Shown in pieces: positions 16,481 to 36,637 of a DNA stretch of 53,575 nucleotides. Under the pieces are notes generated by a model, which saw nothing but the letters and a program-made list of their open reading frames with translations, ran no database searches and had not been told where the DNA came from. This stretch comes from Gammaproteobacteria bacterium. Lineage in GTDB: Bacteria > Pseudomonadota > Gammaproteobacteria > QZLD01. A program made the translations under genes and the position numbers. The stretch lies in assembly GCA_004796365.1 (NCBI GenBank), contig QZLE01000016.1, positions 1-53,575 on the forward strand, given 5' to 3'. Numbering within the stretch: position 1 is the first letter of the stretch; the number at the start of each line of letters is the position of its first letter.

Positions 16481-16629
16481 ACCCCGACCAGTTCAAATTT
16501 CACCATAATAATGGTATTAGCGGCTGGAAATATCAGTACAAATATCCTTTAATTTAATTGAGTTGCCGCGTCCGGTATGGATGTATAGCGATTAGAATAA
16601 CAGATTTATTTATATGGAATATAATTCTA

Positions 16630-18681
16630 GTGACATTTGATCAACTGATTTTAGCTATGTTAGGCGAAGCGGTATTTTTGCTGCTGCTTTGGCTTGTGTA
16701 TTCTGTATACCGCATTCGAAAACTAAAAAACAAATCAGGTGAAAAAGTTGTAATAAAAGAGGTTACCAAAGAAGTAACCAAGGAAGTGAAACCAGATGTT
16801 GAGATCCCTACCTACCTGACTTTTTTGCACCAGGCAATGCTTGCAACCGAATTGCGCCTAGAAGAGGAACGGGAAGAAAAAGAGGTGGAAGATAAGCCTG
16901 AAGAGCCCGGAGAAGATAGCTTTGATCTTGGTGGTGGCTATGATAACCCGCTTGAATTAAGGATGGCATTTATCCGTTCAGAGATTAATGCCATCGAGGC
17001 TTCTGGTGAAGATGGCGGTGCCTATTGGAGTAGTCAGGAGCAAAGTCTAAAAGAAATTTTGGAAAGTATTCCTACCGTAGCTGTTGAGCAGCAGCCATTG
17101 GAACAAAATTATGCTCAGGATCAATCTGCAGAAGAAGCAGTGGACGCGGAAGATGTAGGTGCTATCAAAACAGAGCTAAGTGAGTTAAAGCAGCAGGCGC
17201 AAGCGCTAGAACAGTACAAAAAGCTATTCTATGGCCTAGCAGGAAAATTAAAGGATGCCTCTGAAGCTGCCCGACCAATATCTGATGAGCTAGAATCGGT
17301 AAAATCTCAGTTGGAAGATGCCTCGGCAATTGATTCGCTTACTTCAAGTTATGAATCTGAATATCGAAGCCTAAAAGGAATTCTTGATGATATTGGTGAT
17401 GGTGAGCTTGATGAGATAACACTTGAAAAACTAAGAAAGATTATGGATATGCGTACACAGCGACCTAAGGAAAAGGTTGTGTATGTTGATAAGGCCGAGC
17501 ACAAGGTAAGGCATCAAGTAGATAAAATAAAGCAGGCATCCTCTCAGCAGCAGGGCATAATAACTGAGTTGCAGGGTATGCTGGAGATGTCTGAAGATGA
17601 AGGGATGAAAGGCGAGTTTTTGTCCCGGATAAATTCTCTTGAGGCTGCGCTATCAGAATCAAAGCAGTGCATTGAGGTGCTGGAGAGTGAAAATCAGAGC
17701 AGGCAGGAACAGTTAGAAGATCTGCTGTTAACCCTTGATGATCTTACCGCAAAGGCCGAGCGCCTTGACGAGTTCGAGAGTGGTGAAGAGCCATCAGCGG
17801 GTGAAGAGCCATCAGCAGATGAAAAAACAGCCGAAGAAGAAATAGATCCTGATGATTTATTGGCGCAGGTGCAGCAAGAAGATATGGTGGAAACTGCATC
17901 AGGATCAGAATACAGTGATGAAAAGGTTGAGTTGGAGCGGGAAAAACTGGAACTTAAACGCAACCTTGAGGCGCTGGAAGAGGAGAAACGGGAGCTTGCA
18001 AAAAGTCTGGAAGAGCAACAGGCTAGGGTGGCAGAGCTTGAGGAAAAGATCTCCAAGTTTAGTCGAGAGACCGGTGATGTAATGAATGCCGTGGTTACTC
18101 TTGAGGATGAAAATGATCGTCTGATGGAAGAGGTTGATAAGATTCGTCATGAAAAAGAGGAGCTGGAGGATCAAATCAAACATGAAGATGATGTGGTTCA
18201 TGACGGTCAGGAAGATGTTAGTCCTGATGATATTGATGCACTTCTTGCAAATGCCGGGAATATACTTGATGAGGTAAATGATGATGCTGTCAAAGATAAG
18301 GCAGGCGGCATGGAAGAAGAGGAGTTTAAGCAGGTATCGGAATATATCAATAAAGAGATTGATAATGAAGTTGAGGAGCTTGAGCGTCAGAATAAAGATC
18401 TGAACGAAGAGTTGCAGCAGTCTAAAGAGTTGCTTGATACCAAGCAAGCAGAGCTTGAACAGGCGTTGGATGAATATAGGCAGAAAGAGCAAGAGTATAA
18501 GTCTTTAGTGCAACAGCTTGATGAAAAAGAAGAAAATCTTCAGAAAAAGCAGCAGGAGCTAGAGAATGTTCAGGCCGAGCTTCAGTCCATGCAGGAAGAG
18601 ATTGAGGAAAAAGACTCTTTATATGAGCGATTGAAAAAAGAGTATGCGCAGATGGAGCATGCCACGGTAGAAGAAGTGTAG
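16630..18681 (+). CDS. N-terminally membrane-anchored, acidic coiled-coil protein of unknown function
   Basis: Probable GTG start at 16630 (VTFDQLILAMLGEAVFLLLLWLVYSVY), giving one TM helix then a long Glu/Lys/Gln-rich heptad-like region to 18681. The ORF track starts at 16558. Confidence 0.7.
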   Translation: MTFDQLILAMLGEAVFLLLLWLVYSVYRIRKLKNKSGEKVVIKEVTKEVTKEVKPDVEIPTYLTFLHQAMLATELRLEEEREEKEVEDKPEEPGEDSFDLGGGYDNPLELRMAFIRSEINAIEASGEDGGAYWSSQEQSLKEILESIPTVAVEQQPLEQNYAQDQSAEEAVDAEDVGAIKTELSELKQQAQALEQYKKLFYGLAGKLKDASEAARPISDELESVKSQLEDASAIDSLTSSYESEYRSLKGILDDIGDGELDEITLEKLRKIMDMRTQRPKEKVVYVDKAEHKVRHQVDKIKQASSQQQGIITELQGMLEMSEDEGMKGEFLSRINSLEAALSESKQCIEVLESENQSRQEQLEDLLLTLDDLTAKAERLDEFESGEEPSAGEEPSADEKTAEEEIDPDDLLAQVQQEDMVETASGSEYSDEKVELEREKLELKRNLEALEEEKRELAKSLEEQQARVAELEEKISKFSRETGDVMNAVVTLEDENDRLMEEVDKIRHEKEELEDQIKHEDDVVHDGQEDVSPDDIDALLANAGNILDEVNDDAVKDKAGGMEEEEFKQVSEYINKEIDNEVEELERQNKDLNEELQQSKELLDTKQAELEQALDEYRQKEQEYKSLVQQLDEKEENLQKKQQELENVQAELQSMQEEIEEKDSLYERLKKEYAQMEHATVEEV

Positions 18682-18694
18682 GATATTTCTTACA
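18677..18694 (+). promoter_or_regulatory. GacA/UvrY/LetA-type upstream activating sequence (TGTAGG-N6-CTTACA)
   Basis: TGTAGGATATTTCTTACA differs by one base from TGTAAG-N6-CTTACA, with the correct 6-nt spacer. It lies about 60-70 nt upstream of the inferred sRNA start and overlaps the stop codon of the preceding gene. Confidence 0.75.
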
Positions 18695-18749
18695 TAACAT
18701 ATATCTAAAGTCTTATTGTTGAACTTAGCTCTTATGTCCATAATGCACA

Positions 18750-18880
18750 CATGATTTGCACAGGAAGTGCTGTCAAAGGAATAAACCCTTAAGGATGAGG
18801 GGGTTAAGGCCAGGAGGCCGGGTCAGGAAGACTACAATAAGGAAGTTAAACATAAAACCTCGGTTTATCCGGGGTTTTTG
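18750..18880 (+). ncRNA. Candidate CsrA/RsmA-sequestering small RNA (RsmX/Y/Z- or CsrB/C-type)
   Basis: Loops carrying GGA: GCAC-AGGAA-GTGC (18758-18770), AACCCTT-AAGGATGA-GGGGGTT (18784-18805), GGCC-AGGA-GGCC (18808-18819), GGTC-AGGAA-GACT (18821-18833), and a weak TAA-GGAAG-TTA (18838-18848). An unpaired AAAGGAAT lies between the first two. Intrinsic terminator at 18854-18878. The 5' end is inferred. Confidence 0.82.
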
Positions 18881-18885
18881 TTTTT
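18854..18885 (+). terminator. Rho-independent terminator of the candidate sRNA
   Basis: AAAACCTCGG-TTTAT-CCGGGGTTTT, a 10-bp stem with one G-U, followed by T-rich tract. Confidence 0.9.
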
Positions 18886-19097
18886 ATGGGGAAGTTATTT
18901 CAGTATATTATGAGCCCGCTCAGCCTACGTGTTTATTGCTTTGTATTTTCTTTGGGAAAGTAAATCAATCCGTAAGGCTGTCACATTTTTGATAACTAAC
19001 CTTGCTAAGTTGCCCTAACAGTCCTATATCTTTGTAATGGACTTAATGTGTTCAATGAACAAATAAATTCATCTTGAAAGTGAATAAGGAGAGATAA

Positions 19098-19382
19098 ATG
19101 GCAATTAAACCAGAAGTTGGATCCTGGTATCAGAATGAAACCGAAGATACCTTCGAGGTTGTCGCATTTGATCCAGAGGAGGATTATATCGAGATCCAAT
19201 ACTACGATGGGGCAGTAGAAGAGATAGATCTTGATACATGGGGTGAGATGGGAGTTTCTGCTGCTGAGCCGCCAGAAGACTGGAGCGGAAGCTATGATCT
19301 ACAGCAGGAAGATTATGGTGTAGATCTTGAGCGTCATGGCGGGGATGATGATTGGCAAAACAGCGTAGATAATATGGAGTAA
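19098..19382 (+). CDS. Small acidic protein, DUF6763-like
   Basis: 94 aa: VGSWYQNETEDTFEVVAFDPEEDYIEIQYYDGAVEEIDLDTW; good RBS (aaggagaga) upstream. Confidence 0.7.
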   Translation: MAIKPEVGSWYQNETEDTFEVVAFDPEEDYIEIQYYDGAVEEIDLDTWGEMGVSAAEPPEDWSGSYDLQQEDYGVDLERHGGDDDWQNSVDNME

Positions 19383-36332: not shown

Positions 36333-36424
36333 ATACTTAGCTTAGATTCAAAACGTCAAAAAAATTTGACTCAAAACCCTCCCGCGTGTAAATTTCCCAC
36401 CTCTTAAGGCATCACATGATGCTG

Positions 36425-36595
36425 TAAAAATTGGTTAGTAGGTGCCTGTTTGCTTATTCTTTGGGACAGGTTAAATGGGAAACTGGTAAGAACTACTAAA
36501 TTAGTTTTAGTCCAGTGCTGCCCCCGCAACGGTAGGTGTGTTTGGTGATTTTCCAATTAATTGCTGATACATAAGCCCGGAACCAGCCTTCTATA
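36425..36595 (+). promoter_or_regulatory. Cobalamin (AdoCbl) riboswitch
   Basis: GGTGCC...TGGGA...B12-box-like AGTGCTGCCCCCGCAACGGTAGG...AAGCCCGGAACCAGCC, immediately upstream of a TonB-dependent receptor. Confidence 0.93.
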
Positions 36596-36637
36596 TTATT
36601 AACTCATAATTGCGCGGGTGGGCGCTAGGAGAGCAAA

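Follow-up and report, generated by a model that had tools for sequence, protein, structure and literature searches.

Does the GGA-rich stretch that follows a coiled-coil gene in this gammaproteobacterial genome (2.77 Mb in 201 contigs, 83% complete) specify a CsrA/RsmA-sequestering small RNA (sRNA) with a GacA-type box of its own, as a sequence-only reading had proposed? Based on the analysis of the window (i.e. the whole 53,575-nt stretch of DNA under study), we consider it highly probable that positions 18751-18885 encode a ~135-nt non-coding RNA of the CsrB/CsrC/RsmX/Y/Z type, which would be activated by UvrY via the box and would titrate CsrA, and which is one of three in the genome. The proposal draws its support from the GGA-bearing hairpins, the genes of the regulatory circuit, the layout of the orthologous locus in a relative and the affiliation to an Rfam clan.

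Architecture of the locus

The box was present as claimed, over the end of the coiled-coil gene, whose stop codon (TAG, 18679-18681; ORF 16558-18681) sits inside it. The features of the locus are the following:

16558-18681, plus strand: coiled-coil gene preceding the RNA and not part of it (listed with 707 aa), a conserved neighbour used as synteny anchor
18677-18694, plus strand: GacA/UvrY-type box TGTAGG-N6-CTTACA (N6 = ATATTT), an 18-bp inverted repeat
18739-18744, plus strand: -10-like hexamer CATAAT, its first base at position 63 from the box start
18751-18885, plus strand: predicted sRNA of ~135 nt, its start placed from the -10 and its end at the T-run of the terminator
18759-18771, plus strand: GGA hairpin 1, GCAC-AGGAA-GTGC (exhaustive hairpin search and RNAfold MFE, as for hairpins 2 to 4)
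18778-18780, plus strand: unpaired GGA between hairpins (CAAAGGAATAA; sequence and RNAfold fold)
18784-18805, plus strand: GGA hairpin 2, AACCCTT-AAGGATGA-GGGGGTT
18808-18819, plus strand: GGA hairpin 3, GGCC-AGGA-GGCC
18821-18833, plus strand: GGA hairpin 4, GGTC-AGGAA-GACT
18841-18843, plus strand: unpaired GGA (AATAAGGAAGTT) directly 5' of the terminator (sequence and RNAfold fold)
18854-18885, plus strand: intrinsic terminator AAAACCTCGG-TTTAT-CCGGGGTTTT with T-rich tail (10-bp stem, hairpin 18854-18878)

The six GGA motifs (starting at 18763, 18778, 18793, 18813, 18826 and 18841) are packed into 81 nt (18763-18843), the first of them 68 nt past the box, in agreement with the ~60-70 nt and ~85 nt given by the sequence-only reading. 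All four GGA-loop hairpins that it had drawn were recovered by the exhaustive search, and the 10-bp intrinsic terminator said to close the block was confirmed at 18854-18878.

The number of GGA motifs alone is not rare, at least six in 110 nt being reached by 10.7% of dinucleotide shuffles. Four GGA-loop hairpins in 110 nt were reached by 0.05% of 2000 shuffles (0.2% when the run was repeated with hairpins defined more loosely; overall about 1 in 1000), and a scan of the 53.6 kb in 10,694 sliding windows, covering both strands, turned up no second four-hairpin cluster. Furthermore, all four hairpins are part of the RNAfold MFE structure (-42.3 kcal/mol, z = -3.05 vs shuffles), i.e. the folding that had been suggested as a check came out three standard deviations better than that of shuffled sequences. 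An open frame (18756-18992, 78 aa, TTG start) does run through the stretch and, together with the unexceptional GGA count, might suggest that the locus encodes a short protein or reflects chance composition; however, this frame has no Pfam match and crosses the terminator stem, and neither version explains the excess of hairpins or the conserved layout of the ortholog (see below). We regard both as exceedingly improbable and share the earlier view that the ORF is spurious.

Relation to known RNA families

At gathering thresholds, Rfam yielded no match at the locus. At relaxed thresholds the best specific match was CsrC (RF00084; 18760-18941, E 1.1e-5 for 801 bases scanned), with the GGA hairpins in register, which places the locus, below threshold, in the CsrB/RsmB clan. 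The Infernal/Rfam comparison proposed for the locus was thus borne out as far as clan affiliation is concerned and failed at the level of the family, the score (25.8 bits) not reaching the gathering value of 61; CsrC proper was rejected on these grounds. As no named Rfam family reaches its threshold, we do not file the RNA as CsrC or RsmY proper. Sub-threshold matches to rimP, ohsC, sroD and BSnc120 were discarded as terminator resemblance only. A search of 274 genomes of the class with the DNA of the RNA returned, elsewhere, terminator-like fragments only, and the CsrC model, applied under strict filters to 56 genomes, failed to recover even the window locus, which makes its negatives uninformative. 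Elsewhere in the window, a cobalamin riboswitch (36423-36605, plus strand) lies above the Rfam gathering score (71.2 bits).

The likeness to CsrC of Enterobacterales consists of several aligned GGA hairpins (including GCCAGGAGGC and CAGGAAGAC) and an intrinsic terminator, whereas the predicted RNA is shorter (~135 nt vs a model of 255 positions) and occupies a different genomic place. With RsmX/RsmY/RsmZ of Pseudomonas it shares short length, several GGA loops, several copies per genome and an upstream 18-bp activating sequence of the TGTAAG-N6-CTTACA type; that of rsmY is placed at about -75 (PMC4950607), and the box described here starts ~74 nt before the predicted transcription start. In contrast to these RNAs, no Rsm family was reported at the locus and the neighbouring genes differ. 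The inferred principle, sequestration of CsrA by multiple GGA sites, is that of CsrB (RF00018), although the E. coli RNA has 22 GGA (PMC7652899) and the one described here six; no separate CsrB match was listed at the locus, the scan leaving out overlapping matches of the same clan.

The locus very probably represents, judging by its sequence, a lineage-diverged RNA of the CsrB/RsmXYZ type (Rfam clan CL00106), a kind that is itself already known. Several GGA motifs mostly in loops, a terminator, an upstream box, CsrA, and UvrY together with a BarA-type kinase are features of that clan found here.

Conservation of the locus within the order

Conservation was assessed in one relative of the same order (G001), i.e. 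in two genomes of the order in all. The coiled-coil gene has an ortholog there (BLASTP 32% over 517 columns, E 3e-51), whose stop codon TAA lies within a box (TGTAAGCCTGATACTACA; L095 2040-2023) bearing one mismatch to the pattern; in both genomes the first letter of the box lies two bases 5' of the stop codon, so that the register is kept. After the box come GATAAT at position 62, five GGA motifs, GGA-loop hairpins (among them AGAAAC-AGGAA-GTTTCT and AGGC-AAGGATA-GCCT) and a terminator nearly identical to that of the window. The sequence at the locus has drifted to about half identical between the genomes, the transcribed parts otherwise align poorly, and the stems cannot be aligned base by base (one ortholog): as far as the letters of two genomes tell, layout rather than sequence has been kept. 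The GGA conservation in relatives by which the sequence-only reading was to be judged is therefore found as a retained order of box, -10, GGA hairpins and terminator.

The coiled-coil protein is conserved in the order and has a weak ERM_helical match below cut-off. Its weak homologs in two other genomes of the class (G137 and G345) have a globin-like gene ~70 nt on their 3' side, which leaves no room for an sRNA; weak homologs in two other gammaproteobacterial genomes (L124 and L125) adjoin a gene whose product is probably VWA-like. As a synteny anchor, ispB failed because gene order differs in G001, and DUF6763 was rejected likewise, the gene being widespread and not linked to the sRNA even in G001.

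The downstream neighbour is DUF6763 in the window and P-II in G001, and this difference indicates that the element is tied to the gene on its 5' side and is a unit by itself. It also bears on the possibility that the array acts in cis on the DUF6763 gene (19098-19382), as a leader or attenuator, its GGA sites marking a CsrA-controlled 5' UTR. DUF6763 is indeed the next gene downstream on the same strand, but the terminator and ~215 nt lie in between, the G001 array precedes the P-II gene while DUF6763 resides elsewhere in that genome without an array, and the DUF6763 loci of other class members have no Rfam Csr match; such a leader is hardly credible.

Sibling genes and a probable dedicated promoter

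Across the two genomes, the box with up to one mismatch is no commoner than its reversed control pattern, so that the box alone is weak evidence; perfect sites outnumber the control (seven distinct vs one). The force of the box comes from its fixed spacing to the -10 and the GGA block: a box followed by ATAAT at 40-48 nt occurs at 10 sites (the reversed control gave a single one), and the stretches downstream of control sites hold no comparable cluster of GGA hairpins with a terminator. Six of the 10 sites are Csr-type arrays with terminators, three per genome, a count that stems from a box-based search and could miss copies with a different box. They fall into three pairs (G000 being the genome of the window):

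Pair A: the window locus and G001 C291; pairing firm, by synteny
Pair B: G000 C167 (L093 minus strand, box 2134-2117) and G001 C158 (L094 from 1648); pairing by elimination only
Pair C: G000:C19:6382 (L130 from 1501) and G001:C92:6395 (L129 from 1501); pairing firm, by near-identical box and flank

In all six genes the -10 hexamer starts at position 62 or 63 from the box start. GGA counts (G000 then G001) are 6 and 5 in A, 5 and 6 in B, and 7 and 13 in C, and GGA hairpins number 4 and 3, 3 and 4, and 3 and 7, respectively, each number being attained in at most 0.7% of shuffles (the G001 C158 array ends near position 240). Pair C combines the box TGTAATCC(C/T)(A/G)GGACTACA with a -10 at the fixed spacing and a terminator, and its G000 member (L130) contains the 12-mer of hairpin 3. 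That member is the only sibling in this genome to match RsmY, weakly (29.1 bits vs a gathering score of 57), and for pair B Rfam gives no match from the CsrB clan at a relaxed E-value either. Rfam thus sees two of the six RNAs, faintly (as CsrC and RsmY), and none at gathering score, as anticipated by the earlier suggestion that diverged members may escape standard covariance models.

The recurrence of the spacing speaks against another explanation, in which the GGA array lacks a separate promoter, forms chiefly the 3' UTR of a message from the coiled-coil gene (or from ispB and the coiled-coil gene together) and acts as a CsrA sponge only within this message or once processed from it. Since the box lies on the stop codon and the terminator points in the same direction, a read-through mRNA would carry the array, and 3'UTR-derived RsmA-binding sRNAs have been predicted in Vibrio fischeri by machine learning (PMC5568370). 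Nonetheless, the box and ATAAT recur at fixed spacing at two other gene pairs, which fits a dedicated promoter, and we hold the array to be improbable as chiefly a 3' UTR.

In G001 a further perfect box (C172; L096 minus strand, box 517-500) is spaced in like manner from a TATTCT that resembles a -10, and precedes a GGA-rich stretch that has no terminator and runs into a small ORF; going by this arrangement, it is possibly a UvrY-activated, CsrA-bound mRNA leader.

The Csr circuit and the proposed mechanism

The absence of csrA would have counted against the sRNA, as the sequence-only reading had pointed out. The genome encodes one CsrA (G000 C110, 87.2 bits), adjoining lysC, in which L4 and R44, two RNA-binding residues described as critical (PMC7652899), are both present. 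It further encodes UvrY/GacA (316.5 bits vs the NCBI curated cut-off of 280) and a BarA-like histidine kinase carrying the BarA sensor domain sCache_4 (53.2 bits); the three proteins are likewise encoded in G001.

Following the precedent of CsrB/C and RsmX/Y/Z (PMC7652899, PMC4950607), we infer a route in which phosphorylated UvrY (of the BarA/UvrY, i.e. GacS/GacA, system) would bind the box at 18677-18694, and RNA polymerase would start transcription at ~18751 from the promoter with the CATAAT -10. The six GGA sites of the RNA, four of them in hairpin loops, would then bind CsrA dimers, and CsrA would be drawn off its mRNA targets by titration, relieving its effect on them. Read-through from the coiled-coil gene could append the same array to the 3' end of that mRNA. 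The notion of a master post-transcriptional switch, which the sequence-only reading had attached to the locus, is overstated: with two further such sRNA genes in the genome redundancy is to be expected, and we tone the notion down to one of three likely redundant decoys.

Implications

The order may possess a set of three decoy RNAs for CsrA that is peculiar to it and stands under a rigid promoter (box to -10 within one base). As the box of pair A coincides in either genome with the stop codon of the conserved coiled-coil gene, read-through and UvrY may jointly set decoy levels, and at least one GGA-rich mRNA leader (G001 C172) may be under direct UvrY control as well; as a whole, we offer this extended scenario as a rather unlikely one. 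With CsrA, UvrY, a BarA-like kinase and three probable decoy RNAs, a complete Csr/Rsm circuit can now be proposed for a gammaproteobacterial order of which few genomes have been sampled, and whose six candidate RNAs all escape the curated RNA models at cut-off. Diverged members missed by Rfam are recovered when a box at fixed spacing to the -10 is combined with GGA hairpins, a practical recipe for use elsewhere.
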